DNA of 24,477 nt from a virus: IMG/VR virus record IMGVR_UViG_3300033153_006519, positions 1 to 24,477 of that record; one strand, written 5' to 3'. The first letter of the stretch is position 1; every line of letters starts with the position of its first letter. This document shows positions 2,640 to 23,321 of this stretch, one piece after another. Under the pieces are notes generated by a model that was given only the letters and a program-made list of their open reading frames with translations, did not search any database and was not told the origin of the DNA. The translations under genes were made by a program, and so were the position numbers.

Positions 2640-2644
2640 GCAAG

Positions 2645-2672
2645 TCTATACACTACATCTTGTTTTCGTCAA
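2645..2672 (-). promoter_or_regulatory. Candidate sigma70-type promoter for the capsid genes
   Basis: On the minus strand TTGACG (2672-2667, five of six consensus positions) is followed after 16 bases by TATAGA (2650-2645, four of six). The spacer is AT-rich in an otherwise GC-rich genome. It overlaps the last codons of the Cys4 gene and points at the capsid gene 160 bases downstream. It is the best -35/-10 pair I found in the window, judged by eye. Confidence 0.5.
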
Positions 2673-2901: not shown

Positions 2902-3896
2902 ACCGTCACTCCAGCCTGGCCGACGACGGCGCCGCCGCCGTCACGTCTGGCGATGAGCTCGCGCTCCTCGTTCGACAGCTTGTTGGCCATGGCGCGGTTG
3001 CCGGCGCGATTGGCCTCCTCGGCGCGCTTACGCACGTCGAGGATCTGGTCGTCGATCGTCTCGCGCTCGGTGTTGTTCAATGCCGGTCCCAAACCTCCAT
3101 CACCCATCTCACGGCCGAGCCGCGCGAACGCCTTGATCAGCAGCGGGTTGTCCAACACGTAGCGCCCGGTGCTGTCCTCGAGGTGCCTCGCGTCGGCGAG
3201 ATCCTCGCCGAAGTACGCGGTCAGCGCGCGGTTCTGATACTCGATGTTGGCCTCGTACTCGTTGCCCCACTCGGTGCGCAGCGCGGCCTCGCTCGCGCGA
3301 GCGTGCTGCTCGTCAGCCTCTTTGATGTTGGCCAGGTTGGCGAGATCCTGAGTGACCACGCGATCGACCGCGGCCCTGGCCTGGGCCGCGGTGTAGTGGT
3401 GCTCCTTGAAGAACGCCGACCACTCCTTGCGATCGTCGACGCTCTCTTGCGGGAGCTCCACGCCATCGGGCACCTCGGGCCACCAGTACTCACTCTCGTC
3501 GGCCGGCACGCCGATGGCCTTGTGGTACTCGGCGAGCTCGGCGTCGTCGGCGTTCTTGCCGGGGAGTGAGATGGTCTTGGAGAGCTGCACCCGCTGGTCG
3601 ACGTTACCTTTGACCAGATCGTCGAGCGAGTTGAACCGGCTGGCGTGCTCTTTCAGCTTGGCGTCTACGATCCCGTCTCGCCAGGAGGTGTCGGTGTCGG
3701 CTGCCGCGGCGGCGGCAGCGGCTTCGTCCTCGGCGGTTTTGGCAGCCGCGGCAGCGGCGGCAGCCTCGGCATCACCGTCGCCATCACCGTCGCCATCCCC
3801 GCCATCGCCATCGTCATCACCATCGGCGAAGAGACAAAGACGCTGCTCGAGTTCGTAAGCCGGATCGAAATCAGTCGTCGGTTTGCGTAGGCGCAT
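2898..3896 (-). CDS. Probable capsid scaffold/assembly protein
   Basis: A 332-residue acidic, mostly helical protein between the portal and major capsid genes, the usual place for the scaffold in T7-like phages. The N-terminal 20 residues are followed by a pure Asp-Gly tract (about 26-42) and two Ala/Glu-rich stretches (43-67). The rest is charged helices (KLKEHASRFNSLDDLVKG; EWSAFFKEHHYTAAQARAAVDRV; a long AxxYxxRALTAYFGEDLADARHL segment) and a C-terminus with KRAEEANRAGNRAMANKLSN. Scaffolds of this type share a proline/aromatic EYWWPEVPDG-like segment near the middle, seen here near 137-146. No catalytic motif is present. The ATG at 3896 overlaps the previous gene by 26 bases. Function is assigned from layout and composition, not from a diagnostic motif. 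Confidence 0.75.
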   Translation of the reverse strand: MRLRKPTTDFDPAYELEQRLCLFADGDDDGDGGDGDGDGDGDAEAAAAAAAAKTAEDEAAAAAAAADTDTSWRDGIVDAKLKEHASRFNSLDDLVKGNVDQRVQLSKTISLPGKNADDAELAEYHKAIGVPADESEYWWPEVPDGVELPQESVDDRKEWSAFFKEHHYTAAQARAAVDRVVTQDLANLANIKEADEQHARASEAALRTEWGNEYEANIEYQNRALTAYFGEDLADARHLEDSTGRYVLDNPLLIKAFARLGREMGDGGLGPALNNTERETIDDQILDVRKRAEEANRAGNRAMANKLSNEERELIARRDGGGAVVGQAGVTV

Positions 3897-4197
3897 CGGT
3901 AATCCCCTTGTTCTGCTGTGTCGGCCGCTGGGCCGGCGGTTGGATATGTATCGTGCGATTGATGGTCAAGGCAAGAGCTCGAGCGCCCTCGGCTGCCATG
4001 ACGCGGTGCGGGTCGATCGGGCTCGGCATCGATGTCGCGGTCTTGCCGACGTGCCCCCACGCCATGATCTGGCGCAGCACGCGCTCGGTCACCTCGTTCG
4101 CAAGGAACGTGGATCGGAAGTCGGCGTGCATCTGAGCGGGGTCGTAGGGCTCGGCCGGCAGGAGTGCGTCGTCGAGACCCTCGAGGTCGTCAGGCAC
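3871..4197 (-). CDS. Bbp19-like phage structural protein
   Basis: About 108 residues from a GTG at 4197. The central part, MHADFRSTFLANEVTERVLR then DPHRVMAAEGARALALTINR, follows the Bbp19-like pattern: F...F......VL..I, then DP......EGaR.LaL.I. Members of that family are small virion-associated proteins found between portal and capsid genes in podoviruses, which is exactly the position here. The C-terminus is Pro/Gln/Thr-rich. Start choice is uncertain: GTG at 4197 gives a short overlap with the preceding gene, GTG at 4245 would add 16 residues, and neither has a good ribosome site. It overlaps the start of the scaffold gene by 26 bases. Confidence 0.7.
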   Translation of the reverse strand: MPDDLEGLDDALLPAEPYDPAQMHADFRSTFLANEVTERVLRQIMAWGHVGKTATSMPSPIDPHRVMAAEGARALALTINRTIHIQPPAQRPTQQNKGITDAPTQTDD

Positions 4198-4480
4198 TCG
4201 CCGCTGCCGCGGGCATGCGGATCTTGGGTTTGTCGCCGGGCTCACCGCTAATGGCGTAATGCTTGTCGATGATGCCGCGCAGGATCAGCGCCTGCTCGGC
4301 GCCCAGGTTCTCGACCAGCATGTCGTAGTCGATCGACATGTTGCCGCTGAACCCGGTCTTGATCCCGAACGTCTCGGTGAGTGAGCGCAGCTTCGCCTTG
4401 AGCTGCTCGCCCGCCTCACGCGCTGTCTCGATGCGCGCCTCGGCGCTCTGAGCTCGATGGATTAATTCTGTCTCGTTCAT
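4190..4480 (-). CDS. Small coiled-coil protein downstream of the portal
   Basis: A 96-residue protein. The first half (NETELIHRAQSAEARIET through KLRSLTETF) has heptad-like spacing of hydrophobic residues and many charges, so a coiled coil is likely. The second half contains DYDMLVENLGAEQALILRGI and ends in an Ala/Ser-rich tail. I do not recognise a named family. The ATG at 4480 overlaps the portal stop in ATGA, so it is translationally coupled to the portal. Small helical proteins at this place in podoviruses are usually head-assembly or connector accessories, which is an inference from position. Confidence 0.65.
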   Translation of the reverse strand: MNETELIHRAQSAEARIETAREAGEQLKAKLRSLTETFGIKTGFSGNMSIDYDMLVENLGAEQALILRGIIDKHYAISGEPGDKPKIRMPAAAASA

Positions 4481-6174
4481 GGCTGGGCCGCTGCCTCCTC
4501 AAGGGCGGGCGATCCAGTGGACCCTTGGATACCGCTCGCCTGTGCTGCCGCGGCCATACCCTGGCCGGCGACTTTCAGGTTCTCAAGCTGTTGGGCGTTT
4601 GCCTCTTGCTCAGCCATCGCTTCTTGCGCCTTCGCGCGCTCCGAACGCTTGGCTTCGACCTCGCTCTCGCTGTTCATGAGATCGAGCGGCAGGCCGATCG
4701 CGTCGGCGCCAAACCTCGCGTATTTATCCATGTTGATGATGTCGAGCACCTCGGGGTCACCGGTATTGCCGGCGTAGTTGACCAGGCCGTTGAGCCACAT
4801 CTCGGCCGCTTGGCTCTCGATCTGCTGGCGCACGCGCTTGACCGGGCTCTCGTACTCGAACCTGATGTTCTGGCCCTCGAGCTGCTCGGGGATCGGCAGC
4901 AGCCGACCGGTGCGCATCAGGATCTTGAAGGCGAGCTGTACGATCGGCGCCGTGTAGTCGGTCTCGAGCCGGCCGAACACCGGGCCGATCTCGCGAATGA
5001 ATTCCTCTTTCCTCTGAATGACCTCGGTCGCCGTCATCTGAGGCCCCATCACCGGGAGCTGCAGCACGTTGCGGAAGAACGCCGCGAAGATCTGCTCGCG
5101 GATGTCCTGCTGCATCTCGCGCGTGAGCGGGACGTTGCCGCCGTTGCCCACTTCGAAAAAGGGATTTTTGCCGCCGGCCGTGGTCGGGTCGTAGTACAGC
5201 AGCCCGCCGGGGTAGGTGTTGTACTCGGAGAAGATGCCGTCGCTCGGCACCGCCAGCGCCGGGTCGGCCGCGCGCTGGCCGGCGACCAGCAGCGTCTCGC
5301 CGATGGCCTGGAGCGTCAAGCTGTCGGGCAGCCCGATCATGCCAGGGCTGCGCCCGTAGTCCTCACCGGAGCTCGTGTCCCACCTGGGCACGACGAACGG
5401 GAAGTCTTCGAAGCCGCCGTTGTGGACGATGTGCTCCTGGGCCACCTCGATCCAGGTGTCGGTCCAGGGCAGGTTGCGACCGAGCAGCGCGCCCTTGAAC
5501 CCGCGGTCGCGTATCACGACGCAGTGAACGAATTCGATCCGCTCTTCGCCGCGGTCGTTGCCGCCCTTGGTCGTGAGGAGCTCGCGGCTCTCTTTCGACA
5601 GCTTCTCTTCACCCCACACGCCGGCAGCCTGGCGCACGCTCAGCTTACGAAAACGGTACATACCACGGGGAACGCCAGCAGCGTCGAAGTAGACCAGCCC
5701 GTCCTTCAGATGAACAGACTGGAAAAGCAGGCTGTCGCGTTCCGGCGTCTCGTTCTCGAACAAGACGCCTGTACCGAAGACCACCAAGTCCAGATCGCAT
5801 TCGCCGGTGGCCTGGCCGAAGCGAGATCGAGGGTCGTCGAAGGCCGCGCGGATCTTGTCTTCACAGTCGTTGAGCCAGTACTTGACCTGCTCTTGCTCGT
5901 CGAGCTTGTCGTCTGTGGTCTTGATGAAGAACCATTTCTGGCCGTCGGGGCGGACGATGCCGCCGAGCGCGTTGGCCAGTCCTCGAGCCGCCACCATGGG
6001 CGTGCCGTCGAAGATCTCCTCGGTGCGCTGGGCGCCGTCTACCTGGGTGGACGCAAAGCCCTCGCGCCTGGGCAAGAGCACGCGCGCGAGCTCATCCCAG
6101 TGGTTGTTCCAGACGCCGCGGTTGGAGCGTAGGCTCCGAGCCCGCGCGATATGCTCTTTGACGCTATCGGGCAT
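4477..6174 (-). CDS. Portal / head-to-tail connector protein (T7-type)
   Basis: A 565-residue protein of the bacteriophage head-to-tail connecting protein family, the dodecameric portal through which DNA enters and leaves the head of podoviruses. Seen in the sequence: an N-terminal helical segment (RNRGVWNNHWDELARVLLP-like, near 18-36), then GTPMVAARGLANALGGIVRP near 57-76, typical of this family; a central DGLVYFDAAGVPRGMYRFRK; and a C-terminal TATEVIQRKEEFIREIGPVF stretch followed by a helix ending in RTGRLLPIP. Length fits the family. The C-terminal 70 residues are Ala/Gln/Glu-rich and probably helical. It follows the coiled-coil gene at 6164-6673 with an 11-base overlap and is followed by coupled small structural genes. 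Confidence 0.9.
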   Translation of the reverse strand: MPDSVKEHIARARSLRSNRGVWNNHWDELARVLLPRREGFASTQVDGAQRTEEIFDGTPMVAARGLANALGGIVRPDGQKWFFIKTTDDKLDEQEQVKYWLNDCEDKIRAAFDDPRSRFGQATGECDLDLVVFGTGVLFENETPERDSLLFQSVHLKDGLVYFDAAGVPRGMYRFRKLSVRQAAGVWGEEKLSKESRELLTTKGGNDRGEERIEFVHCVVIRDRGFKGALLGRNLPWTDTWIEVAQEHIVHNGGFEDFPFVVPRWDTSSGEDYGRSPGMIGLPDSLTLQAIGETLLVAGQRAADPALAVPSDGIFSEYNTYPGGLLYYDPTTAGGKNPFFEVGNGGNVPLTREMQQDIREQIFAAFFRNVLQLPVMGPQMTATEVIQRKEEFIREIGPVFGRLETDYTAPIVQLAFKILMRTGRLLPIPEQLEGQNIRFEYESPVKRVRQQIESQAAEMWLNGLVNYAGNTGDPEVLDIINMDKYARFGADAIGLPLDLMNSESEVEAKRSERAKAQEAMAEQEANAQQLENLKVAGQGMAAAAQASGIQGSTGSPALEEAAAQP

Positions 6175-6673
6175 TCCACATATCGGTGATGCGGGTGATC
6201 ATGGTCTCGCGTGTCGCGACGTTGAGCTCGCGAACGCTCAGCGCCGTTTCACGTTTCTCCAACGCTGTGTTCTGTATCTCGAGCGCCTTGAATTCGATCT
6301 TGTTCTCCGTGCGGGTCGCCGCAACCTCGGCCAGGCCGGTCTTGAGTGAGGCAGCCTTGTCGGCGTGGGTCTTCTGCTGCTTCAGCTCGGCCGTCTCGAT
6401 CGCGATACGGCGTGTGCGCAGCATATCGGTCGACTGGGCGTGCGCGCGGCTGTTGGCGTTGGTGACCTTCACGAGCTCGGCGAGCGCGGCCTCGGCGCCG
6501 ACCTGGGTCTTGGCAGCCGCGTTGCGCTCGTCGCGCAAGAGCTCCATAGCCGCGCCGTGGCGCTTGGTCGCGGCATCGAGGCGCTTGATCTGTGTTCCGA
6601 TCTCTTTCGGGTCCAGGCTCGCGACAGCGTCGGCGAGACTGGCGGTCTTGGGTGTGGCTTTCGCTCCGACCAT
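6164..6673 (-). CDS. Long coiled-coil protein upstream of the portal
   Basis: A 169-residue protein that is nearly all charged helix from about residue 15 to the end, rich in Ala, Lys, Glu and Thr, with heptad-like hydrophobic spacing (for example ALEIQNTALEKRETALSVRE). There is no signal peptide, cysteine or catalytic motif. The composition resembles scaffold or tape-like helical proteins, but a separate scaffold candidate exists at 2898-3896, so its job is unclear; a portal-associated or internal head protein is possible. The ATG at 6673 follows the previous TAA after one base, with only a weak AAAGG ahead, so coupling to the upstream gene is likely. Confidence 0.65.
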   Translation of the reverse strand: MVGAKATPKTASLADAVASLDPKEIGTQIKRLDAATKRHGAAMELLRDERNAAAKTQVGAEAALAELVKVTNANSRAHAQSTDMLRTRRIAIETAELKQQKTHADKAASLKTGLAEVAATRTENKIEFKALEIQNTALEKRETALSVRELNVATRETMITRITDMWNAR

Positions 6674-6674
6674 G

Positions 6675-6980
6675 TTACAGCCTTTCGATGACGCTGATGG
6701 TGTGCCCAGCTTCGATGTCGAAGTACTCGGGGTTCTCGGCGCCCATCATGCGACCCTCGGTGCCGTCGTTGAGCGCGGTGACACCGGCGCCCCAGGTCAC
6801 CCAGGCCTTGGCGTCGCACATGATACGAACCCTGCGCTTGACGCGCTCGCCGTTGGGCTGGCCGATGATGGCCTCGCTGGGTGCGGCGGTGTCACTGATC
6901 GCGACCGCGCCCTCCTGCAGGACTGGCCCGACCGCGACCTCGGCCGCGGCGGTCCAGACGGTGTATTGCATTGTCGCCAT
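6675..6980 (-). CDS. Small beta-rich phage protein of unknown function
   Basis: A 101-residue protein with alternating beta-strand-like segments (YTVWTAAAEVAVG, AIIGQPNGERVKRRVRIMC, AWVTWGAGVTAL) and a clear C-terminal signature NPEYFDIEAGHTISVIERL. Proteins ending in this ENPEYFxIxxGxxIxVI pattern are common in podovirus and siphovirus structural regions and may be small virion beta-sandwich proteins; the exact role is not known to me. The ATG at 6980 has a GGGAG six bases ahead and starts two bases after the upstream stop. An ATG three codons later is possible. Confidence 0.7.
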   Translation of the reverse strand: MATMQYTVWTAAAEVAVGPVLQEGAVAISDTAAPSEAIIGQPNGERVKRRVRIMCDAKAWVTWGAGVTALNDGTEGRMMGAENPEYFDIEAGHTISVIERL

Positions 6981-6982
6981 GA

Positions 6983-7228
6983 TCAGCTCCCGGTGTAGGT
7001 GTCGTCGCTACCGCTGCCGAGCTGTGATCCGCCGCGGGTGTTCGCGTCGCCCATCTTGGCGCCGGTCTGCACCAGGCGGGTCTTCGCCTTCTTGCGGTTC
7101 TTGGTGATGTTCTGGAGACGCCGCTTTTCCTTGGCCGCGGCGATCGCCTCGTCGTCACGTTGCGGCAGCGGCTCCAGTGGCTCCACCGCTGGCGGGCTCG
7201 CACTTTTGAAGCCTGGAAGAATTCGCAT
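6983..7228 (-). CDS. Small basic protein beginning MRILPGF
   Basis: An 81-residue, Lys/Arg-rich protein with a Pro-rich N-terminus, a charged helix (EAIAAAKEKRRLQNITKNRKKAK) and a Gly/Ser-rich C-terminal tail. The first residues MRILPGF resemble MRLLPGY at the start of the protein encoded at 7583-7858; the two may be distant paralogs or share a short N-terminal motif. It lies inside the 3' end of the upstream gene by 74 bases, with a GGAG eight bases before the ATG supporting translation. Function unknown. Small basic proteins between terminase and portal are frequent in this type of phage. Confidence 0.6.
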   Translation of the reverse strand: MRILPGFKSASPPAVEPLEPLPQRDDEAIAAAKEKRRLQNITKNRKKAKTRLVQTGAKMGDANTRGGSQLGSGSDDTYTGS

Positions 7229-7586
7229 GCGCCTGTCTCCGCTTCAGATGATTGTAGAGCTGCCAGGGCGTCTGAGCCCACGGCGCGCGGATGCATAGTA
7301 CAGCTTTCACCAACCCAACGCAGTTATTAATCATGAGCGGCGAGAGCACGGGCCTGGTGCCCTGCATCGTGTCGATGACGGTGCAGTCGTTGTCCTCGTA
7401 GAACGCGACGGGATCCCAGTCGACGCCGGCGAGCGGGTCGACCACCGGCACGCCGATCTGGGCGTCGATGCGGATCCAGATGTCGTCGACGAGCACCACG
7501 GCAAATACGTGGCTGAAGCCGTCCTTGAGATACCGACCGAGCGGATGGCGCTCCTCGCCGCTCGAGAATACGAGGACCGCCCTCAT
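7155..7586 (-). CDS. Conserved phage protein with possible Cys/His site
   Basis: A 143-residue protein. It has an N-terminal strand VLVFSSGEE, a GRYLKDGFSHVFAVVLVDD segment with His26, an IRIDAQIGVPVVDP strand pair, a NNCVGLVKAVLCI helix and a final TPWQLYNHLKRRQ. The order GFrH-F..., DP, C(V/E)xVKxxLxI, TPWQLYxHL is a conserved phage family found near terminase and portal genes. The Cys in a helix start together with a conserved His and Asp reminds me of papain/NlpC-like folds, but no activity is known to me and this is speculation. The ATG at 7586 overlaps the upstream stop in ATGA. The C-terminal 30 residues share DNA with the next gene. Confidence 0.75.
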   Translation of the reverse strand: MRAVLVFSSGEERHPLGRYLKDGFSHVFAVVLVDDIWIRIDAQIGVPVVDPLAGVDWDPVAFYEDNDCTVIDTMQGTRPVLSPLMINNCVGLVKAVLCIRAPWAQTPWQLYNHLKRRQAHANSSRLQKCEPASGGATGAAAAT

Positions 7587-7858
7587 CTACCCATGCCGGT
7601 GTGGTCGGGGTGCTCGGGGTTGTTGGGGTCGTCAGCCATCAGCGCACCGGTGCGCCGCTTGTTCTCAGCCCTGCGCGCATCGGTCTTCTCTTTGTAATCC
7701 GCGGCCTCTTTGTCCTGCTTATACTTGGCGTTGTGGGGATCGAACATGCCGGTGCCACCCATCATATCGTCGACCTTCTTGGCGCCCGGCTGGAACTTGG
7801 CGACCAGCTTATTGCCGGGGAGCTTCGCGAACATGCCGTAGCCTGGGAGTAGCCTCAT
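7583..7858 (-). CDS. Small charged protein beginning MRLLPGY
   Basis: A 91-residue protein with a glycine/hydrophobic N-terminus (MRLLPGYGMFAKLPGNKLVA), a DDMMGGTGMFDP linker, a charged helix rich in Lys and Asp, and a Pro/Asn/Asp/His tail. I chose the ATG at 7858 because it overlaps the upstream TGA in ATGA and has GGAG seven bases ahead; a GTG four codons earlier is open but poorly placed. The N-terminal motif resembles that of the product at 6983-7228. Function unknown. A role in head completion is possible by position. Confidence 0.65.
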   Translation of the reverse strand: MRLLPGYGMFAKLPGNKLVAKFQPGAKKVDDMMGGTGMFDPHNAKYKQDKEAADYKEKTDARRAENKRRTGALMADDPNNPEHPDHTGMGR

Positions 7859-8094
7859 CGTTTTCTCCACCGATGTGGGTGTAGCCGTTTCTGTCTCGCT
7901 GGTCTGGTCCCTGGTCGGAAAACCGGATCATGCATTATGACGCCATTCGCAGCGCGTGTCCGCTCCTCGATATAGTCGGTCAGCTTGTCGGCCGTCCAAC
8001 CGTTGCGTCGCTCTTCCTCGTTGGGCTCGATGAGCACGCGCAGGTCGGGATCGATGCCGCGTCGCCGCCTGCTGGTCTTAGCGGTGCTGCGCAT
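7855..8094 (-). CDS. Small Arg-rich protein overlapping the terminase end
   Basis: A 79-residue basic protein with Arg clusters at both ends (KTSRRRRGIDPDLRVLIEPN near 7-26 and RQKRLHPHRWRKR at the C-terminus) around a central acidic-amphipathic helix (WTADKLTDYIEERTRAA). No family recognised. The ATG at 8094 lies in the last codons of the terminase gene (17-base overlap) and has only a weak AGCAGG well upstream, so translation is probably by termination-reinitiation. Highly basic ends suggest nucleic acid contact, which is inference. Confidence 0.55.
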   Translation of the reverse strand: MRSTAKTSRRRRGIDPDLRVLIEPNEEERRNGWTADKLTDYIEERTRAANGVIMHDPVFRPGTRPARQKRLHPHRWRKR

Positions 8095-9340
8095 GCGGGT
8101 TGTACCTGCTGTTGGCGCGCACCGGCGGGTTCACGAGCCGCTTCTGCACCAGGCGCGGGAAGAGCTCGCTGAAGGCCCACACCAGCGCGTCGACGCGATC
8201 GGGTGAGCCTTCGCCCTCGTACCCGCCGGCGGTCATCAGAACCATCTGTGCCTCGAGCTCGGGGAAGCTGCCGATGTGGCTGATCCGGCCGAGGCCGTAC
8301 AGGCTCGAGATCGGCTCGGCGCGCACATGCTTGCCGCGGGACGCCACGACCTGGACGATCGGCGCGTTGGGGTGGACCGACCTGATTGTGTGCGCCACGA
8401 GATCGCCGCCCATATTTCGCTCTACCACGTAGGCGTCGGCTTCCCACTCGTAGAACATCACCCGCGCCGCGGTCGCCCACTGCGCCGGATCGCCACGCAT
8501 CGAGGCGTCGTCGAGCACGTAGCCGCGCCCGTCCATGCCTTTGCCGGCGACGATGATGCCGTGCTCGTCGGAGTACTCTTCGCTCGAGACCGCGTGATCG
8601 ATGCTGACCAGGATGCGGTCCATCTCGGGCGCCTCGCGACGGCGATGCTCTCGGATGTTGTTTAAATTCCAGATGGCGCCGAGGGCTTGAGGCTGGTACT
8701 CGCCCCTCCAAATATGTGTATATCGATCCGGCACATTTATCTTGTCGTACAGGCGCTCCTGCTCGAGCACGTCAGGAAAAAACGGGTTGTCGTAGTAGTT
8801 GGCCTGGATGACGATCGCGTCGGGTGGCGGCTCGGGGCCACGGAGGAGTTGATCTACCGGGTCCGTTGCAGACCGCGGGTTCCAGCTAAACCACAGCTCC
8901 GAGCCTGGGGAGCGGATCGTGGGGCGCAGCATCTCGAGCGACCCGGCGGTCATCGTCTGTGCTTCCTCCACGTACCCGATCTCAAAATTCTCGAGTGATT
9001 TTACGCTTTCCTTGGTGTGCTCTTGCATGCCCTGGAACAGGATGAGCCCGTCGCGCAGTGTGCGGATCTGTTGGTCTTGGACGTTGAACTTGTCGGCCAC
9101 GCCGAGGTCGAGGATACTGTCCTCGATCAAAAGCTTGACGCTTTCCTTCAGAGATTTTTGCACCTCTCTGACACAGACCAGGCGCGAGCCGGGGTGCTTG
9201 ATGGAGTAGTCGACGAGCTTGCGCGCGAAGAACCAACTTTTGCCGCTGCCCCTTCCGCCATGTGCGCCTTTGTAGCGTGACGGCTTCTCGAACGGTTCGA
9301 AGATGTGCGCGGTCGGGATGACCAGGTTACTGCCGTCCAT
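8078..9340 (-). CDS. terL: Terminase large subunit (packaging ATPase and nuclease)
   Basis: A 420-residue DNA-packaging motor of the terminase 3/PBSX-like type. The N-terminal ATPase has Walker A GGRGSGKS (28-35), Walker B IGYVEE (121-126) with the catalytic Glu, and coupling motif SWNP (152-155). The C-terminal RNase H-like nuclease has Asp248 in SIDHA, Glu307 in VVERNMGG and Asp381/Asp384 in DRVDALVWAF, so all acidic metal ligands expected for concatemer cutting are present. Length is normal. The ATG at 9340 overlaps the TGA of the upstream DUF5681 gene (TGATG), which fits a small/large subunit pair. The C-terminal Arg/His tail overlaps the next small gene. Confidence 0.93.
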   Translation of the reverse strand: MDGSNLVIPTAHIFEPFEKPSRYKGAHGGRGSGKSWFFARKLVDYSIKHPGSRLVCVREVQKSLKESVKLLIEDSILDLGVADKFNVQDQQIRTLRDGLILFQGMQEHTKESVKSLENFEIGYVEEAQTMTAGSLEMLRPTIRSPGSELWFSWNPRSATDPVDQLLRGPEPPPDAIVIQANYYDNPFFPDVLEQERLYDKINVPDRYTHIWRGEYQPQALGAIWNLNNIREHRRREAPEMDRILVSIDHAVSSEEYSDEHGIIVAGKGMDGRGYVLDDASMRGDPAQWATAARVMFYEWEADAYVVERNMGGDLVAHTIRSVHPNAPIVQVVASRGKHVRAEPISSLYGLGRISHIGSFPELEAQMVLMTAGGYEGEGSPDRVDALVWAFSELFPRLVQKRLVNPPVRANSRYNPHAQHR

Positions 9341-9675
9341 CAGTCGTCCTCGTCTCGAGGCTCGGGCCGGATGTAGTGGTAGGTGATCGTCGTCAACGGC
9401 GGGCCTTCCTCGTCACCGCTGATCGGCTGCACCGGCTTGCCCTCGGTGCGATCGACGAGCTTCTCGATCGTGGCGGCGTCGCCATTCATCGCCTTGTGGA
9501 ACATCTGGCGCGCCAAGCGGGTGGCGTTAGTCTCATCAGGGCAGTCGTCGAGCACGTTGACCGGGTCGCGCGTGTCCAAGATGACCCGAAGCGCATCGGT
9601 CACCGGCTTGCTCTTGGGGCGCCCACCGGGGTTGCCGCTGGTGCCTTTCTGGAACAGGCCTCGGTGATTTTTCAC
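9340..9675 (-). CDS. DUF5681-type protein, likely terminase small subunit
   Basis: A 111-residue protein opening with FQKGTSGNPGGRPKSK, the hallmark of the DUF5681 family, which often lies directly before large terminase genes and is treated as a small-subunit-like DNA-binding protein. The middle (ARQMFHKAMNGDAATIEKLV) is helical and contains the GD-x-A-T-I-x-K-L-V-D-R-T-E-G-K-P-x-Q-P signature common in this group. The tail is acidic. The start is a GTG at 9675 that overlaps the upstream TGA (GTGA). Pairing with terL by direct overlap supports a packaging role. It has no classical helix-turn-helix that I can see. Confidence 0.78.
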   Translation of the reverse strand: MKNHRGLFQKGTSGNPGGRPKSKPVTDALRVILDTRDPVNVLDDCPDETNATRLARQMFHKAMNGDAATIEKLVDRTEGKPVQPISGDEEGPPLTTITYHYIRPEPRDEDD

Positions 9676-9890
9676 AGCATCTTACCCACGTTCTGCCTAA
9701 ATCCCTCGTGTCGCAGCGCCAGGTCGGCAGGCGTCGCCGCTACCTTGCCGTCGAACGACCCGTACCTCATGCGGGTGCCGCCGTATAACCCCATGCGCGT
9801 GTAGCCCTCGCGCAGGGGGATGAACAGCGTCTTGCCGCTGAACTCGCCGTACTGGCCTCGAGAGCCACCATAGAGGCCGAGGCGCGTCAT
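9672..9890 (-). CDS. Small protein with a duplicated GLYGG motif
   Basis: A 72-residue protein made of two copies of an approximately 19-residue unit, TRLGLYGGSRGQYGEFSGK at 2-20 and TRMGLYGGTRMRYGSFDGK at 31-49 (13 of 19 identical), followed by a helical tail. Gly/Tyr-rich repeats like this are seen in small phage proteins near fibre genes; the role is unknown. The ATG at 9890 overlaps the upstream TGA (ATGA) and the end overlaps the DUF5681 gene (GTGA), so it is embedded in a coupled chain. A virion or fibre-associated function is inferred from position and repeats. Confidence 0.7.
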   Translation of the reverse strand: MTRLGLYGGSRGQYGEFSGKTLFIPLREGYTRMGLYGGTRMRYGSFDGKVAATPADLALRHEGFRQNVGKML

Positions 9891-12685
9891 ACGATCTTGA
9901 TGGCGGACCCGGCGCTCGGCGCGACGGCCAGCACATCCCCACTGTAGATCACCACGCCGTCGGCGCTGATGTAGTCGTCGATGACACCGCCCTCGCCGTC
10001 GGCGTCGCCGCCGGTGAAGATCACGACCCGGCCGATGAGCTGGTCGTTCTCGTAGCCGGCCAGGTCGGTCGTGACCGCCGAGGTCGTGCCGGCCGACACC
10101 GATGTCGTGGCGCCGTAGATGATGCCCTTGTTGAGATCGGTGACCACTGTCGAGATGGCCGCGGCCACGGCGCTGGTGGCCACACCGCTGATCTGGGCAC
10201 TGATCGCATACGCGCTGGCCAGGATCGTGCGGGCAATCATCTCGGCGTCGGTCGGCGGGTCGTACTGGGTGAGCGCACTGAGCGCGGCGCCCGACACCTG
10301 GGTCGCGATCTTGCTGATGGCGTCGGCGCTGAGCACCGCCGAAGTGATGGCGCTGGCCGCGAGCGTCTTGGCCGACACGACCTGCGCGCTTGTGGCGATG
10401 GCGCTGGACACGATCGTGCGCGCGATCATCTCGGCGTCAGTCGGGGGATCGTAAGAGGTGAGCGCGCTGAGCGCCGCGCCCGACACCTCGGCCGGCGAGG
10501 CATTGGCCACGACCTGTGTCGAGGTGGCGTAGGCGCTCGAGAGGATCGTCCTAGCCGCGACCTCGGCGCTGGTCGGAGGATCGTACTGAACGAGGGCCGA
10601 CAGCGCCGCACCCGACACCTGGGCCGGTGTGGCATTGGCCGCGACCGCGGTGCTGATGGCGTAGGCGCTGGACAAAATCGAGCGCGCGATGTGCTCGGCG
10701 CTGGTCACATAGCTGGCCGTCGGCATCGTGCGCGCCGCCACCTCGGCCGAGGTCGGCGGGTCGTACTGGGTGAGAGCTGACAGCGCCGCCGCTGATTGGA
10801 GCGAGGGGGCATTCGCCACAACCTGCGCCGAGGTCGCATAGGCTGATGCGACCTGCGTACGAGCTGCCACCTCGGCGCTAGTCGGCGGGTCGTACTGAAC
10901 GAGCGCGCTGAGCGCCGCGCCCGATGTCTGTGTCGCTATCTTGCTGATGGCGTCGGCACTGAGAACCGCGCTCGTGATGGCGCTGGCCGCGAGCGTCTTG
11001 GCCGCCACGGCCTGGGCGCTGGTGGCGTAGGCGGACGTGGCCAGCGTGCGCGCGATGACCTGGGTGCTGGTGACGTAGGCGCTCGCGAGCTGCGTCCTGG
11101 CCGCGACCTCGGCGCTGGTCGGCGGGTCGTAGGCCGTGAGAGCTGACAAAGCTGCTTGGGACACGGCTGCCGCGTCCGCACCACCGGCTGCACCGGCGAT
11201 CTCGGACACGACCGAGCTCGCCACCGCGGCCGAGATGTCATCGACCTCGACCGTGAACATGGCGCCGGCGATAGCCGACACGACAGGTAGGGCAGCGACC
11301 GCCGTCGAGATGGCGTAGGCGCTGGCCAAAATCGTGCGTGCCGCCACCTCGGCGCTGGTCGGCGGGTCGTACTGGGTGAGGGCCGACAACGCCGCGGTCG
11401 ACACCTGGGCAGCGGTGGCGCCGCCGGCCGCGCTCGCGATCTCGGACACGACCGAGCTCGCCACCGCGCCTGAGATGTCGTGCTCGGCGAGCGTGAACAT
11501 AGCGTCGGTGATGGTGCTGACCACGGGCAAGGCCGCGACCGCCGTGCTGATGGCGTACGCCGATGCGAGGATCGTGCGTGCCGCCACCTCGGCCGAGGTC
11601 GGCGGGTCGTACTGGGTGAGGGCTGACAGGGCCGCACCCGACACCTCGGCCGGCGAGGCATTGGCCACGACCTGCGCGCTGGTGGCGTAGGCGCTCGCGA
11701 GCTGGGTGCGCGCAATGTGCTCGGCGCTGGTCACATAGCTGGCCGTCGGCACCGTGCGAGCCGCGACCTCGGCGCTGGTCGGCGGGTCGTACTGGGTGAG
11801 AGCTGACAGCGCCGCCTCCGACACCGCGGCAGCGGTGGCGCCGCCGGCCGCGCTCGCGATCTCAGACACGACCGAGCTCGCGACCGCGCCGCTGATATCG
11901 TGCTCGGCGAGCGTGAACATAGCGTCGGTGATAGCCGACACGACCGGCCGTGCAGCGACCAGCGTGCTTGTGGCGATGGCGCTCGACACGATCGAGCGCG
12001 CGATGTGCTCGGCGCTGGTGACATAGCTGGCCGTCGGCATCGTGCGTGCCGCCACCTCGGCCGAGGTCGGCGGGTCGTACTGGGTGAGAGCTGACAGCGC
12101 GGCACCCGACACCTCGGCCGGCGAGGCATTGGCCACGACCTGCGCGCTGGTGGCGTAGGCGCTCGCGGCCTGTGTCCTGGCGAACACCTGACCACTGTCG
12201 ACATAAGCGCTCGCCACGAGCGTGCGAGCAGCCACCTCGGCGCTGGTCGGCGGGTCGTAGGCGACTACGGCGCTGAGTGCGGCAGCCGACTGGAGCGAAG
12301 GCCTGTTGGCCACGACCTGGGCGCTGGTCGGCATGACCGCGGCGCCGGCCGAGAAGAACGCGTCGTAGATCGCCTGCTCGATGACTTGGAATTCCTTGAA
12401 CACCGGCAGCGCCGCGCTGTCGTCTTGCACGACGACGGTCATGGCGCCGGGCGTGTCGGTGTCGCCTGTCGTGAGCGTGAGATTGTACCAGCCGTCGGCG
12501 CTCGTCCTGGCCGACCAGGTGCGCGCGCTAATATCGGATGGCGCCGCGCTCGTATTGTACTTGAGCACGAAAGCATCGTCGGCTGCCGAGATCAGGATGC
12601 CGGTAACCGGGGCCACGGCGGTGGCGCTGTTCAAGAACGGCCCGACCTGGACAATCTGCTGGGTGCTCTCGCGAAGGTACTGCAT
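9887..12685 (-). CDS. Large Ala/Ser-rich repeat structural protein (fibre-like)
   Basis: A 932-residue protein with three parts. Residues 1-115 form a conserved phage N-terminal domain (MQYLRESTQQ, VGPFLNSA, then a DGWYNLTLTTGDTDTPG beta segment and FKEFQVIEQAIYD). Residues about 120-840 are an Ala/Ser/Thr-rich repeat array with eleven copies of a unit centred on YDPPTSAEVAART, separated by ASAYATSAQVVA-like and VVSEIASAAGG-like spacers. The last 90 residues form a beta-rich cap (GRVVIFTGGDADGEGGVIDD). Known phage proteins with this head, helical repeats and cap are virion structural proteins, probably fibre or stalk. There is no catalytic motif. The ATG at 12685 overlaps the glycosyltransferase stop (TGATG), and the repeat DNA is itself strongly repetitive. 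Confidence 0.75.
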   Translation of the reverse strand: MQYLRESTQQIVQVGPFLNSATAVAPVTGILISAADDAFVLKYNTSAAPSDISARTWSARTSADGWYNLTLTTGDTDTPGAMTVVVQDDSAALPVFKEFQVIEQAIYDAFFSAGAAVMPTSAQVVANRPSLQSAAALSAVVAYDPPTSAEVAARTLVASAYVDSGQVFARTQAASAYATSAQVVANASPAEVSGAALSALTQYDPPTSAEVAARTMPTASYVTSAEHIARSIVSSAIATSTLVAARPVVSAITDAMFTLAEHDISGAVASSVVSEIASAAGGATAAAVSEAALSALTQYDPPTSAEVAARTVPTASYVTSAEHIARTQLASAYATSAQVVANASPAEVSGAALSALTQYDPPTSAEVAARTILASAYAISTAVAALPVVSTITDAMFTLAEHDISGAVASSVVSEIASAAGGATAAQVSTAALSALTQYDPPTSAEVAARTILASAYAISTAVAALPVVSAIAGAMFTVEVDDISAAVASSVVSEIAGAAGGADAAAVSQAALSALTAYDPPTSAEVAARTQLASAYVTSTQVIARTLATSAYATSAQAVAAKTLAASAITSAVLSADAISKIATQTSGAALSALVQYDPPTSAEVAARTQVASAYATSAQVVANAPSLQSAAALSALTQYDPPTSAEVAARTMPTASYVTSAEHIARSILSSAYAISTAVAANATPAQVSGAALSALVQYDPPTSAEVAARTILSSAYATSTQVVANASPAEVSGAALSALTSYDPPTDAEMIARTIVSSAIATSAQVVSAKTLAASAITSAVLSADAISKIATQVSGAALSALTQYDPPTDAEMIARTILASAYAISAQISGVATSAVAAAISTVVTDLNKGIIYGATTSVSAGTTSAVTTDLAGYENDQLIGRVVIFTGGDADGEGGVIDDYISADGVVIYSGDVLAVAPSAGSAIKIV
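10240..12290 (-). repeat. Degenerate tandem repeat DNA within the fibre-like gene
   Basis: About 2 kb of imperfect direct repeats coding for eleven YDPPT units. Long near-identical blocks occur: a 66-base exact match between 11634-11699 and 12102-12167, and a block of about 107 bases at about 10680-10787 that is repeated at about 11996-12102 with two or so differences. Units differ in the choice of spacer module rather than being clean tandem copies, which suggests shuffling by recombination. Confidence 0.85.
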
Positions 12686-13509
12686 CAGGCGTTCTCGCTA
12701 ATCGTCTGCAGGATCGTCACGGCTCGCTCCTTGGCTACGAGGTACGACGCTGTTACCGGGTGCTTGTCGCCTTGCGTCTCCTCCACCTCGGGGATCGTGG
12801 CCCGGTACTCCTCGTTGGGGCAGAACGTGTCCATCACCGCGGTCATGTCCTCGAGCCTGCGCTCGGGGTAGAGCTTGTCGGCGATCGCTTTGGCCTCGAC
12901 CAGGCGAGCCCCGCGGGTCGCGTGGTAGAAGTCGTCCCAGAACATCATGTCGCGCATGCGCGTCGTTGCCATCGGACAGTCAGCGAGCTTGGCGCCTTCG
13001 ATGCGAGGGACTTCGAAGCCCGTCACCATGATGCCGACCTCGCGGATCCACACGTCATCATACCAGCAAGGGAACAGGTCTGTGAAGATCCGACCGGTGA
13101 CCGCGCGCCAGGTCTCGGTGACGATCGGGTAAATGGCCTTGCGATCGTCGAACGCATCCCACCACCACAGCCCGCGGGGGTTGGCCTCGACCGCCTCGGC
13201 GATCGCCTTGTCCCACTTGGGCGAGACGCAGATCACGTCGTCGCCGAGCGTCGTGTACACGTCGGCCGGCACCGCCGTGGCAAGCTGGTTGTGGTAGCTG
13301 CCGAGCGCCGGCAGGCGGGAGAAGAGCGACATGCTCGCCCGGTGTGTCTGGGTACACCGGGCCGCGGCCTCGATCGATGCCGGGTCGTCGTTGTCGACGC
13401 CGATCGAGTAGACGACCTCGTGCTCGCCACTCTCGAGCATCGAGAGCGCGTGGACGCAGCCGCCGATGAAGGTGGCTCGCCTGGTCGGGATCATGCATGT
13501 GATCTTCAT
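12685..13509 (-). CDS. GT-A fold glycosyltransferase (GT2-like)
   Basis: A 274-residue protein. It opens with KITCMIPTRRATFIGGCVHAL, the first strand and helix of GT2-like nucleotide-sugar enzymes, followed by YSIGVDNDDPAS, a GS-YHN helix, and YTTLGDDVICVSPKWDKAI with Asp-Asp in the place of the DxD metal site. A later WWWDAFDDRKAIYPIVT and CWYDDVWI are also acidic/aromatic segments typical of the acceptor side. No membrane segment is seen. Donor and acceptor cannot be told. Its ATG overlaps the adhesin stop (ATGA) and its end overlaps the repeat-protein start, so it sits between two candidate fibre proteins; modification of those proteins or of host glycans is an inference. Confidence 0.75.
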   Translation of the reverse strand: MKITCMIPTRRATFIGGCVHALSMLESGEHEVVYSIGVDNDDPASIEAAARCTQTHRASMSLFSRLPALGSYHNQLATAVPADVYTTLGDDVICVSPKWDKAIAEAVEANPRGLWWWDAFDDRKAIYPIVTETWRAVTGRIFTDLFPCWYDDVWIREVGIMVTGFEVPRIEGAKLADCPMATTRMRDMMFWDDFYHATRGARLVEAKAIADKLYPERRLEDMTAVMDTFCPNEEYRATIPEVEETQGDKHPVTASYLVAKERAVTILQTISENA

Positions 13510-15671
13510 GCCTGGTGCATCCTTCGAAGGTGTTGGTGCTTAGGAGGAATGGTGTCGCCACCAGCCGCTTCGACTACCGTATAGGTGAACGTCTGGGTGT
13601 ACGTGTCGAGATCGGTCCCATCATTTAACTCCAGACGGATCGTACCTGTTTCGCCGTTGGCGACGTTCGTGCTGTCGATTTGAAACGAAAGTGCAGCAAC
13701 AAATGCAGTATCTGTAACCAAATCCGCAGCAAGAGAAAACGTCCCGTCTTCGCTGGCGGCATTATTATTGGCGACATAAGTACCGCTGCCGGATAGGATC
13801 TCGGAGATATCGTCGTTGTTTAGATATGCCGCCGTCGCCACCGCTTTAACGTGTGTTGAAACTGTCGTGATCGCCGTGTCACCGCCGCTGTTGTGATTAT
13901 ACGCCCAGCGGAAATCAGCCGTTCCCGTCGCACCGCCGCTATTATAGGCGCGGGCCAAAATGATGTACGTGACATCCACATCGAGGCTGGCATCCGCGTT
14001 GAGAGCAGCGTGTTCCTCGGTCGTTACCGTTATTGCAAAACCGCTAGACCGGGTGGTAGAGCTATCTTCGACAATGACATAGTGTGTGCGGAAAAGCTCT
14101 AAATCGTCAGTGAGGGCACCGGTGGTCGTAATCTCTTGGATATCGACCTGTATTGACGTGTCAGCCCAAGTATCAACGGCTATCTCGACGTATGTACCTA
14201 CTGCTCCCAGCGTCGCAGTCTCCGACACATATACTTTACCCGTGGTGCCGCCGAAGTCCGTTCCGGTGATCGTAACGTCTTGCTCACCATCCCAGACCAC
14301 TTCGTCACTGTTAACATCAGTAATGGCGGGAGTCGTACCCGCCAAAGAGCCAAGACGTAGCAACGACATCTGCGCCGATTGCGCCGCTATAGCTCCCGAA
14401 GCCGTACCAATCCTATCATTCCGGCTATAAATACTATCACCAGCCGTCAGGCCCGTGAGTAACCCACCACATGAGATGCTGGCTGTCGCTGATGTGCTAT
14501 TGCGATTGTATGTACTGCCGCCGGTGATCTCGATGTCTGTCGTATTGACGCGGAACTGGATTGCCGGGACGGCGCGACTGACACCAATAGAAGACGTTCG
14601 AGCGTGTGTGGCAAAAACGAAATAATCGTCATTCACATCCACATCCACGTTGGCATTAGTTGCCGTGTGGGTGAACCCGGCTGTATCGATGTGGGGAACG
14701 GTATCCCACGCAAAGTTTGTCGCAGCGGCGTTGAAGTTGCCTGACGTAGCTTCAACGATGCAGGTCTCGGCACCCGCTGGCAGTTGCCAAATCTCCAGCG
14801 ACGAACCCGCAAGATAGTTTACAGTCGAGCTTTCGCCGTCTGCGCGAACATGACGAAGAACCAAGACATCCAATGCAGCGACATCAATAATGCCACCCCA
14901 TGACAGACACCCGTCATCAGAGTTGTCCGTTGTCCGTAGATAGGTCTGCGTGTGAGAGCCAGCGACAGCGACGGTATCTAGTTCGAGATGCGACAGAAGC
15001 TCATTTCTAGAACCCGAGCCAGATGCGTCCAAAGGAACAGAATAACTGATAAAGTACCGGCCCGCAGATGTAATCGTAATGCTGTCGGTGGACCGGGAAA
15101 ATCCCGTGTCTTGCTCATCATTGGTATCCCAGACAATCGATGCCTCGGACCCATTACCTGTTACGACAGCCTTGTTCGATGATGTCGAATAACGACCAAA
15201 CGCATCGCCATCATCAAGTTTAAGAATTGAAATACCAGACCGATCACCAGCTTGGCGTGTCGGCGAGCCTGTCGTCGAGTTATCCCTCCTGTCTGAACGA
15301 ATTAACAATGATTGCGAAGACGTAGAAACATTGATGATCGCAAAGCCGCTGACAATATACTCTTGAGAGCCACCGCTCTTCCGAATATAGCCACTGGACT
15401 GCCCAGGAACGATGTTCGCGCCATTGAGGCGCAAATATGTCATCCAGTTGATGCGTTCGTTGTTGGTCGTACTCGTCGTGCCAAAATGGTCTGAATAAGT
15501 GACCAGATAATTGCCGGTATCGACAAGCGTAAATGTGCCAGCAGAATATGTGACTGCCGTTCCGCTAACCGCTACCTGCGTATCCCAATCGTGATCGAGG
15601 GTCGATCCCGTGGTCGGCAGGGTTGATGTATCCGACGCATTGCGTCGGACCATATAATCTAGGTTAGCCAT
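13506..15671 (-). CDS. Tail adhesin with three C1q-like repeats and an IPT/TIG domain
   Basis: A 721-residue, Ser/Thr/Gly/Asn-rich beta protein. Three successive domains of about 145 residues (about 1-150, 155-300, 300-450) each have a W-DT motif, a G-YF-x-Y strand and a closing hydrophobic strand (SGISILKL, SLEIWQL, MSLLRL); the layout resembles C1q/TNF jelly rolls. Next comes an IPT/TIG Ig-like domain (about 452-520: TPAITDVNSDEVVWDGEQDV then ITGTDFGGTTGKVYVS). The C-terminal 200 residues form further beta domains. These are binding modules, so receptor recognition on the host surface is likely. The ATG at 15671 has a weak ribosome site. Base composition is clearly lower in GC than the flanks (30 of 60 in one hand-counted sample, versus 39 of 60 in the polymerase gene), suggesting foreign origin. 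Confidence 0.75.
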   Translation of the reverse strand: MANLDYMVRRNASDTSTLPTTGSTLDHDWDTQVAVSGTAVTYSAGTFTLVDTGNYLVTYSDHFGTTSTTNNERINWMTYLRLNGANIVPGQSSGYIRKSGGSQEYIVSGFAIINVSTSSQSLLIRSDRRDNSTTGSPTRQAGDRSGISILKLDDGDAFGRYSTSSNKAVVTGNGSEASIVWDTNDEQDTGFSRSTDSITITSAGRYFISYSVPLDASGSGSRNELLSHLELDTVAVAGSHTQTYLRTTDNSDDGCLSWGGIIDVAALDVLVLRHVRADGESSTVNYLAGSSLEIWQLPAGAETCIVEATSGNFNAAATNFAWDTVPHIDTAGFTHTATNANVDVDVNDDYFVFATHARTSSIGVSRAVPAIQFRVNTTDIEITGGSTYNRNSTSATASISCGGLLTGLTAGDSIYSRNDRIGTASGAIAAQSAQMSLLRLGSLAGTTPAITDVNSDEVVWDGEQDVTITGTDFGGTTGKVYVSETATLGAVGTYVEIAVDTWADTSIQVDIQEITTTGALTDDLELFRTHYVIVEDSSTTRSSGFAITVTTEEHAALNADASLDVDVTYIILARAYNSGGATGTADFRWAYNHNSGGDTAITTVSTHVKAVATAAYLNNDDISEILSGSGTYVANNNAASEDGTFSLAADLVTDTAFVAALSFQIDSTNVANGETGTIRLELNDGTDLDTYTQTFTYTVVEAAGGDTIPPKHQHLRRMHQA

Positions 15672-15688
15672 CTAAATCTGAAAGGGCA

Positions 15689-16399
15689 TCAGTCATTCAC
15701 CCCCTTTTTATAGACTCGAAATGACACTTGCTGATATGTAACAGCCACCGTCGCCTTCTTAAAGACTGCAATGACACCTGACCATTCGTCGCTAGAGGTC
15801 GAGGTCAGGTTCGCGGTCAGTGCCGTCGTAGCGGATGTGATCTGACTGCCGGAACAGGACGAGTTGTCGCCCGATCCTCCGGGGTTAAAGGTGTAGTTTT
15901 GTGTCCAACCATCGCCACTGTCGATGGAGATGTCGCCACCAGTGTCCTGACCTGCGACAAAGATGGCGTAGTTGTCGGCTTGCGCCAGCGTGGCCGTCGC
16001 TCCAATGGAGAAGGTGGACGAGGGGCTTGTCACGCTGTTGACGGCGGTCAGGTCGAGCGGGGTAGCGTCAAACGCACCCTCAATCTCAAACAGGCCGATA
16101 CTAAGCTGTTCGTCGTTTGTCCAAGCAACAAAAGCCTCGGTCTCATCACCATGAGAAATCTTGTAGAAGATGGCCGAGGAAGAAGTGCCGTCGGCCGAGA
16201 CCTCAAAAGCCGCTTGGGTCCAGAAGTCCCCGGAGCCATCCTCATCCCGAACGGTGGGGTCTTCGACACCCTTGTCCCAGTTCAGAGCAACAATCAGCAG
16301 ATTACCGAGCGTGGCCGTCGCGCCAAGCTCCTGTGTGTGGTCGGGGGTGGTGGCAACATTACCGTCGAAGGACGAGTTTACTACGCTACCGAACGCCAT
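15689..16399 (-). CDS. Beta-sandwich phage structural protein (tail/adhesin accessory)
   Basis: A 236-residue protein with no signal peptide, rich in Thr, Ser, Ala, Gly and Asp. It has repeating short strands: LGNLLIVALNWDKG near 31-44, a GDFWTQAAFE strand, a SSSAIFYKISHGDET strand, a NYAIFVAGQDTGG strand, and a C-terminal SDEWSGVIAVFKKA. The LLIVAxxW, then W-T, then IFYK, then AxxVFK order is a beta-sandwich type common in phage tail-region proteins. The start at 16399 has an AGGTGG ahead and lies inside the tiny Arg-rich gene at 16386-16454, so the two are translationally linked. It shares the lower GC content of the adhesin next door. Virion attachment is inferred. Confidence 0.7.
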   Translation of the reverse strand: MAFGSVVNSSFDGNVATTPDHTQELGATATLGNLLIVALNWDKGVEDPTVRDEDGSGDFWTQAAFEVSADGTSSSAIFYKISHGDETEAFVAWTNDEQLSIGLFEIEGAFDATPLDLTAVNSVTSPSSTFSIGATATLAQADNYAIFVAGQDTGGDISIDSGDGWTQNYTFNPGGSGDNSSCSGSQITSATTALTANLTSTSSDEWSGVIAVFKKATVAVTYQQVSFRVYKKGVND

Positions 16400-21827: not shown

Positions 21828-22985
21828 CTATTTTCCGGCCCTCTTCGCGATCTCTTTGAACACGCCCGACATCGAGACCTCGGTGCCCTCGGCGTCGTCG
21901 GGCACCAGGTTGGTGCCACCCGACGAGCGCGTGATGATCTCGTCGTCGGGGTGCGGCTTGAGATCGTTGAGGGACAGATCCTTCTTCTTCAGCAATTTTT
22001 CTATCGGCGCCGGCCCCAGCAGCGTGTGCTTATAGAAGTCGGCGACCTTGAACTTGCGACCGAAGCTGCGCAGTTTTGCGGCTATCTCGTCCTCGTCAGC
22101 CCACTTGCGATTGCCGAGCTTCTTGGCGACCAGCTTCATACCAGGGACACTATGCCCGCTCTCGAGCTGGCCGCGGGCGAGCGCCCGGCGTTCCGAGATC
22201 ATTTCTTCGAGTTTGGGCGCGTCCTCGGCTAGCCACCGACCGAGCTCTTTGGGCTTGAGCTCGGACGATTTGAGCGCGGCGATGCCGATCTTGTTGATGA
22301 CAGGACACGCCGGCATGGCCGGGCACCACTTGCACCAATCGCCCGCCTTGAACGGCGCGGTGGTCTTCTTCATGGTCCGCGTGGTGACCTTGAGCTGGCG
22401 TTCGAAGTCGACCAGGTCTTGCAGCGACACCTCGTCGTACGGCTTGTTGCTGATGCCGAAGCCGGGCTGGACGATGTAGAGCCGGATCGGCTTGTCCTTC
22501 TCGAACCAGTCGGGGCGGCTGTGCCGTGCCGCCGAGGCGTAGTAGCGGAGCTGCTCGTTCTTGATCGGCGAGACGTAGACGCCGCGGCCGAACTTCCAGT
22601 CGACGATCGCAGTGAATTCGTCGGTGTGTCCGACAACGTCGCCGGTCCCGAACTCACCGGGTAGGTCGGGAAAGCTGACCGTCGCCTCGATGTCGACATC
22701 GAGCCAGTCGATGCTGTTAAACAGGTCGAGCGCCGGTACGATCATCTCGTTGAATAGCTCGAGGCTGAGCTCGTGCTCGTCGCCGTGGGTCATGCCGACC
22801 ACGTCCTCGACGTAATCGACCTGGCCATCGAGGATCAGCGCCATGGCGCTGTGCAGCATGGTGCCCTCGTCGGCGTAGCTGCTCGACGGCTGCTCGGGCA
22901 GGGTCTGGCCGAGGCGCCAACTTCCGGGGCAGTTGATCACGCGCTTGGCGGACGAGCCGCCGATCATCTTGCTGTGGGCCGTCAT
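21828..22985 (-). CDS. DUF2800 phage protein, Cas4/RecB-like PD-(D/E)XK nuclease
   Basis: A 385-residue protein of the DUF2800 group, built like a Cas4/AddB-type nuclease. Catalytic pattern: His45 in DEGTMLHSA, Asp116 in GTGDVVGH, Asp129 and Lys131 in IVDWKFGRG, and QLRYYA (145-150) as the QxxxY-type motif. Four cysteines could bind an iron-sulfur cluster: Cys19 in INCPGSW and Cys218, Cys221, Cys227 in WCKWCPAMPAC. The C-terminal 150 residues are charged helices with a KKLGNRKWADEDE stretch. Such proteins process DNA ends in phage replication or recombination; the exact job is not established. It starts with an ATG overlapping the stop of the mini-methylase gene (ATGA) and lies upstream of the SSB candidate and polymerase. 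Confidence 0.85.
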   Translation of the reverse strand: MTAHSKMIGGSSAKRVINCPGSWRLGQTLPEQPSSSYADEGTMLHSAMALILDGQVDYVEDVVGMTHGDEHELSLELFNEMIVPALDLFNSIDWLDVDIEATVSFPDLPGEFGTGDVVGHTDEFTAIVDWKFGRGVYVSPIKNEQLRYYASAARHSRPDWFEKDKPIRLYIVQPGFGISNKPYDEVSLQDLVDFERQLKVTTRTMKKTTAPFKAGDWCKWCPAMPACPVINKIGIAALKSSELKPKELGRWLAEDAPKLEEMISERRALARGQLESGHSVPGMKLVAKKLGNRKWADEDEIAAKLRSFGRKFKVADFYKHTLLGPAPIEKLLKKKDLSLNDLKPHPDDEIITRSSGGTNLVPDDAEGTEVSMSGVFKEIAKRAGK

Positions 22986-23098
22986 GTCAGTGTCTCCATG
23001 TATGCTGTTACGAATTCCGCCGCGATTTGCGGGACGATGGCGTTACCCGCTCCGCGCAGCCACTTGCCACAGAACGGATCGTTGTCGTTGTAGATCAT
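22982..23098 (-). CDS. 38-residue relic resembling both ends of a DNA cytosine methyltransferase
   Basis: Reads MIYNDNDPFCGKWLR and then GAGNAIVPQIAAEFVTAYM plus a few residues. The first part looks like the start of phage C5-cytosine methyltransferases (YYNExDPxxxxWLRNL); the second looks like their C-terminal motif X (LRxxGNAIVPQxAAEFIxAxM). All catalytic motifs between are absent, so it cannot methylate DNA. The two halves meet at the WLR/RLR-like residues, suggesting an internal deletion at shared codons that stayed in frame. It has a GGAG seven bases before the ATG and ATGA coupling to the nuclease gene, so it may still be translated and serve as a coupling leader. The family assignment is from memory of motif patterns. 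Confidence 0.6.
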   Translation of the reverse strand: MIYNDNDPFCGKWLRGAGNAIVPQIAAEFVTAYMETLT

Positions 23099-23099
23099 C

Positions 23100-23321
23100 T
23101 CAGATCTCCAGGTGGAGCATGAGCTCTTGCGCGCCGAACACCATGTTGGCGCTGCAGCTCTCGCAGGGATATTCGCGCGCGTCCGGCTCGGTCTGGCCCT
23201 GCTCGCTGCCGCACCCGATGCAGATGCCGGGATCCTCCAGGCTCATGGACGACCGCTCGACCGCGGCCACGATGGCGTCGGCGTGCTTGGCCGCGCGCTC
23301 AGCTATTTCGGTGTGGTTCAT
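23100..23321 (-). CDS. Small zinc-ribbon phage protein
   Basis: A 73-residue protein with a helical N-terminus (HTEIAERAAKHADAIVAAVE), a zinc ribbon of Cys34, Cys37, Cys53 and Cys56 (ICIGCGSEQ, then EPDAREYPCESC), and NMVFGAQELMLHL at the end. The EPDARxYxCExC...VxGAxELLL pattern is a widely distributed phage small-protein family with no known function. The ATG at 23321 has GGGAGAT nine bases ahead and overlaps the upstream 40-residue gene by 23 bases. DNA or RNA contact through the ribbon is likely by analogy only. Confidence 0.78.
   Translation of the reverse strand: MNHTEIAERAAKHADAIVAAVERSSMSLEDPGICIGCGSEQGQTEPDAREYPCESCSANMVFGAQELMLHLEI

Follow-up and report, generated by a model that had tools for sequence, protein, structure and literature searches.

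The record analysed here is a viral contig of 24,477 bases from an uncultured phage, referred to below in its full length as the window. It contains a packed early operon in which a 73-aa Cys-rich gene, a 38-residue mini-ORF, a DUF2800/PD-(D/E)XK exonuclease gene, a DUF2815-like gene, DNA polymerase A and a primase-like VapE protein follow one another (Table 1). The exonuclease assignment is based upon matches to PF10926 (DUF2800; E 5e-49) and PDDEXK_1 (E 7e-10). Read on the minus strand from 23098 down to 22982, the mini-ORF specifies MIYNDNDPFCGKWLRGAGNAIVPQIAAEFVTAYMETLT and terminates with TGA. An earlier note, made from the letters of this DNA, had described a 38-residue frame with a good ribosome site and an ATGA overlap with the DUF2800 nuclease, and all three are present. 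The 3' end of the mini-ORF, GCATACATGGAGACACTGACATGA (that is, TACATGGAG...ACATGA), carries the nuclease's Shine-Dalgarno sequence as well as the start-stop overlap, the former lying wholly inside the mini-ORF. Its GC content at third positions is 71%, calculated from only 38 codons, versus 80-90% in the neighbouring genes.

Table 1. Features of the mini-ORF and of the genes on either side of it (window coordinates)
Feature	Position	Strand	Remarks
73-aa Cys-rich (zinc-ribbon-like) gene, directly upstream of the mini-ORF	23100..23321	-	stop and mini-ORF start read TGAGATG
GGAG, Shine-Dalgarno of the mini-ORF	23106..23109	-	7 nt upstream of the mini-ORF ATG
38-residue mini-ORF: N-terminus and motif X C-terminus of a phage C5-cytosine methyltransferase, fused in frame	22982..23098	-	
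N-terminal part (MIYNDNDPFCGKWLR), equal to the first ~15 residues of the family	23054..23098	-	YN[DE]xDP..xxWLR; best match 10/14 (L213)
CTGCGC, Leu-Arg codons common to both ends; deletion junction in or beside them	23054..23059	-	
C-terminal part (LRGAGNAIVPQIAAEFVTAYMETLT), corresponding to the family's motif X end	22985..23059	-	up to 19/25 identical (L348, L238)
GGAG, Shine-Dalgarno of DUF2800	22994..22997	-	mini-ORF codons 34-35 (ATG GAG), 8 nt upstream of the DUF2800 ATG
ATGA overlap: DUF2800 nuclease start and mini-ORF stop	22982..22985	-	
DUF2800 / PD-(D/E)XK exonuclease gene, downstream neighbour of the mini-ORF	21828..22985	-	385 aa

The N-terminal half of the product (residues 2-15) was placed, both by eye and with MAFFT, on the first residues of a family of phage C5-cytosine methyltransferases. 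The family columns, taken from 189 intact genes, read Y-Y-N-E-x-D-P-x-A-A-x-W-L-R, and the mini-ORF reads Y-N-D-N-D-P-F-C-G-K-W-L-R, with Asp in place of the near-invariant Glu. Tyr, Asn, Asp, Trp and Leu are invariant in the 189 genes, the same motif having been the search key for those columns. A PSSM for the 14-mer was built from relatives picked with a looser anchor. It gave the mini-ORF 26.9 bits, a score that not one of 20 million random 14-mers attained; the next best of the 37,105 14-residue stretches in all six frames of the window had 7.1. The closer form YN[DE]xDP[FY]CxxWLR was found in 50 viral contigs, mostly where a long methyltransferase frame begins, some instances being in frames cut by the stored stretch. 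Motif II of the C5-methyltransferases (E.DP.C...L) was considered as a source of this half and was ruled out by the preceding Tyr-Asn, the following Trp-Leu-Arg and the position at the very start.

The remainder of the product corresponds to motif X. Residues 14-37 matched positions 292-315 of the 327 in phrog_363 ('DNA methyltransferase'; E 4e-4), and tblastn aligned this half to the C-terminal end of the C5-methyltransferase of Klebsiella phage SBP with 82% identity (5e-5). When a methyltransferase HMM was run against the window in six frames, the mini-ORF frame scored E 9e-9 and nothing else was significant; a Pfam search with the mini-ORF returned no match. The PSSM, tblastn, phrog_363 and HMM scores put the resemblance to methyltransferases far beyond chance, and since the matches fall at the N-terminus and the C-terminus of the family, both halves come from one family. 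These four lines of evidence thus bear out the earlier reading of the product as the two ends of a DNA cytosine methyltransferase fused in frame, with the catalytic motifs gone.

The parent family is of the PF00145 type, with M.HhaI as the nearest solved relative. Both the N-terminal extension motif of the phage subfamily, YN[DE]xDPxxxxWLR, and a C-terminal motif X (GNAIVPQ..AAEF), which characterize members of PF00145/phrog_363, are found in the mini-ORF. Among these phage enzymes are those of Klebsiella phage SBP, Kagunavirus K1ind3 and Podoviridae sp. ctNMl277 (MW202483). They have in common with it the N-terminal motif and GNAIVPQxAAEFxxAYME, and several also have a 3' GGAG followed by an ATGA overlap. 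They are, however, ~270-400 residues long rather than 38, and the mini-ORF is without their catalytic motifs, SAM-binding motifs and target-recognition region. The closest intact genes, for example L348 (YYNDNDPKVCAWLR ... LRGAGNAIVPQVAAEFVMAYAESIA), have 266-326 codons. With the family HMM, the catalytic PCQ, the SAM-binding FAGIGG and the remaining core motifs were found neither in the mini-ORF nor in any other part of the window, all six frames being covered, which rules out a nearby core reached through a split gene, an intron or recoding. Judged from its sequence, a stub with no catalytic, SAM-binding or target-recognition motif cannot methylate DNA.

It is very probable that the mini-ORF originated as a deletion derivative of a methyltransferase gene. 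We propose that a gene of the phrog_363 type would have lost ~250-300 codons in one internal in-frame deletion, probably between short repeats at two Leu-Arg-coding sites. In intact relatives Leu-Arg is found at two sites, in WLR near the N-terminus and in xLRGxGNAIVP near the C-terminus, and the mini-ORF has one CTGCGC. A junction on Leu-Arg codons common to the two ends, as the earlier note had it, fits well with this CTGCGC at the join and with the 160 of 189 full-length relatives that have Leu-Arg at both ends, 30 of the 160 having the same six bases at both. In a smaller set, in-register runs of at least five identical bases at the two Leu-Arg sites were present in 18 of 46 genes, compared with 3.5% of random codon pairs; such runs are permissive and not proof, because the conserved amino acids alone yield them. 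From the join we infer deletion by short homology as the putative mechanism. The ATGA overlap was preserved because the join is in frame; in either of the other two frames it would be broken, with termination 22 or 57 nt ahead of the DUF2800 ATG.

The deletion is witnessed by one assembled contig, and the ends of a real full-length gene might have been brought together during assembly or in a chimeric read. Contigs of this same phage do disagree locally, at a 29-nt gap (~16162-16190) and in a repeat array. A standard assembler would nevertheless not merge two ends over six common bases, the reading frame runs exactly through the join, and the operon on either side is undisturbed; an artefact of assembly or library preparation is consequently most improbable.

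A full-length methyltransferase at the position of the mini-ORF, for which the earlier note had proposed a search of related phages, was not found. In none of 61 loci with DUF2800 was a methyltransferase located directly upstream of it on the same strand. At the 40 loci containing both genes, the methyltransferase is encoded on the other strand, follows DUF2800, or precedes it by 624 nt or more; in many relatives full-length copies thus belong to the same replication cassette, elsewhere in it or on the other strand. Since no intact same-strand methyltransferase was found directly upstream of DUF2800, we can only infer the arrangement that preceded the deletion. In replication cassettes like these, a full-length C5-methyltransferase is often found 0.6-0.7 kb downstream of DUF2800 (L126, L128, L148, L171, L175 and others), and in L073, L078, L080 and L152 one lies divergently upstream of it. 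In L224 (~100-1050, minus strand), methyltransferase segments are scrambled across frames, with core segments before a second N-terminal-region segment, owing to either gene rearrangement or an assembly error.

Further copies of the fusion were sought in two collections, which may omit records very close to the window's own. Degenerate patterns for the exact fusion matched no other record, whether among the 2.9 million viral contigs or among the 84,980 species genomes. A gapped, wider-gap pattern gave 33 matches in viral contigs, nearly all of them ordinary motif X ends, mostly within long ORFs and in a few cases on short fragments; no other short N-to-C fusion was among the matches listed. 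Scanning the species genomes for short N-terminal leaders produced eight matches and no leader (one early stop, the others long frames), and a literature search found no report matching a fusion of methyltransferase ends. In Komagataeibacter phage phiKX1 (L002, ~3480-5129) a 549-codon frame with both C5-methyltransferase ends is annotated as separate hypothetical proteins. Its 'hypothetical protein' was considered as a short form and ruled out, since the frame is open over all 549 codons and it is the annotation that is split.

The 38-residue form, for which conservation had been suggested as a check, was therefore absent from every other record searched. A recurrence of this short form in independent genomes under purifying selection, the mark of a conserved micro-protein, was not seen in these collections. 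As the fusion occurs nowhere else in them and no methyltransferase was found directly upstream of DUF2800, it appears to be a private deletion remnant with no sign of conservation as a protein; in the lack of a second fusion and of a same-position methyltransferase there is likewise no comparative evidence for selection on the peptide.

This bears upon the possibility that the peptide has a role of its own. It might act against a methyltransferase of the host or of a rival phage, for example by mimicking motif X, which in M.HhaI packs against the SAM-binding region, or it might bind DNA or the nuclease. The intact ribosome site and start would suit such a micro-protein. AlphaFold2, run on the single sequence, modelled one helix at residues 8-37 with a mean pLDDT of 78, best at the motif X end, and a pTM of 0.41. 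For a lone 38-mer such a helix is weak evidence, neutral on peptide function, and no second example exists in the collections searched. A functional micro-protein is accordingly very unlikely. We attach equally little weight to the more specific proposals of a dominant-negative or decoy piece blocking host or competitor C5-methyltransferases, or of a regulator of the adjacent DUF2800 nuclease. Nothing points to the inhibiting or titrating role raised by the earlier note, and the 38-residue form is without conservation in the records searched.

The 3' end of the mini-ORF offers another reason for its presence. The intact relatives L218 (tacatggagtgcagaccATGA), L238 and L363 (tacatggaggtgtgtgccacATGATG) have a 3' plan like that of the mini-ORF, with TACATGGAG or GGATGGAG shortly upstream of ATGA or ATGATG, and in intact relatives the conserved Tyr-Met-Glu codons form GGAG ahead of the ATGA overlap. 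Because the Shine-Dalgarno sequence and the overlap are in the retained 3' end, as they are in these relatives, the deletion would have removed the enzyme and left the wiring. Ribosomes ending the 73-aa gene would start on the stub and, on reaching the ATGA overlap, would pass on to the DUF2800 gene; the Shine-Dalgarno sequence of the latter is formed by the stub's last codons. If so, the peptide would be made and coupling would be the reason for its retention. The coupling leader suggested by the earlier note gains indirect support from this location of the signals and from the loss of the overlap in out-of-frame joins.

A less favoured explanation is that of a recent deletion which left an idle stub, its frame and overlap being leftovers that persist by chance until lost. 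In agreement with this, the fusion is private to the record, with no other match in the viral contigs and species genomes, GC at third positions is a little reduced, and Asp replaces a near-invariant Glu in the N-terminal motif. Against it, two of the three possible join frames would have destroyed the overlap, which is intact here together with most motif X residues and both Shine-Dalgarno sites. The in-frame, coupled state could be due to luck, at about one in three for the frame; on balance a neutral remnant is rather unlikely. The stub is probably kept as a putative translational linker within an early operon whose genes are tightly packed, as judged from these sequence features. As a whole, a C5-methyltransferase stub left by an in-frame deletion and persisting as a putative translational linker is the best explanation for the mini-ORF, and we give it a probability of roughly two in three.

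The mini-ORF resembles linker or leader ORFs of packed phage operons in having its own Shine-Dalgarno sequence, TGAGATG before it, ATGA after it and the next gene's Shine-Dalgarno sequence inside it. Unlike such ORFs in general it is recognisably derived from both ends of an enzyme, and the coupling here is predicted from sequence. An unrelated contig, L261 (IMGVR_UViG_3300045738_001553), contains at 1635-1709 on the plus strand a 24-codon ORF, MPAYYNEIDPYCAAWLRNLIAAGR, which is the bare N-terminus of the methyltransferase family. Its neighbours are two early-region genes, RusA on one side and, on the other, a PAPS-reductase-like gene whose start it overlaps (TGATG). No methyltransferase core follows the ORF, which was the sole such leader among 252 instances of the N-terminal motif. 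Here too a member of this family has been cut down to a short ORF that overlaps the adjacent gene; it differs from the mini-ORF in consisting of the N-terminus alone, without motif X, and in preceding a PAPS-reductase-like gene rather than DUF2800.

Under the linker interpretation the mini-ORF would be a clean case of a phage dropping an enzyme (~0.8-1 kb) and keeping the codons that wire its neighbour into the operon. It suggests a simple cause for the persistence of such remnants, namely that the C-terminal Tyr-Met-Glu codons can serve as the next gene's Shine-Dalgarno sequence. Perhaps other tiny ORFs annotated in phages are translational wiring and not functional proteins.

Two sister contigs of the phage were available for comparison. 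The longer (36 kb) shows 99.99% identity over window 1-16162 and ends short of the mini-ORF region. It gave no match to phrog_363 in a search that included a positive control; a second, intact methyltransferase may lie between its far end and the right end of the window. At its end (L212) it lacks 29 nt at window 16162-16190, inside a 236-aa ORF (15689-16399) whose frame would be shifted as a result; the gap is either true variation or an assembly effect at the contig's end. A 932-aa Ser/Ala-rich protein, encoded by window 9887-12685, consists of degenerate repeats (SALTQYDPPTSAEVAART...). Compared with the window, ~340 bp of this array are missing from the 14-kb sister contig (L012), and the repeat copy number may vary.
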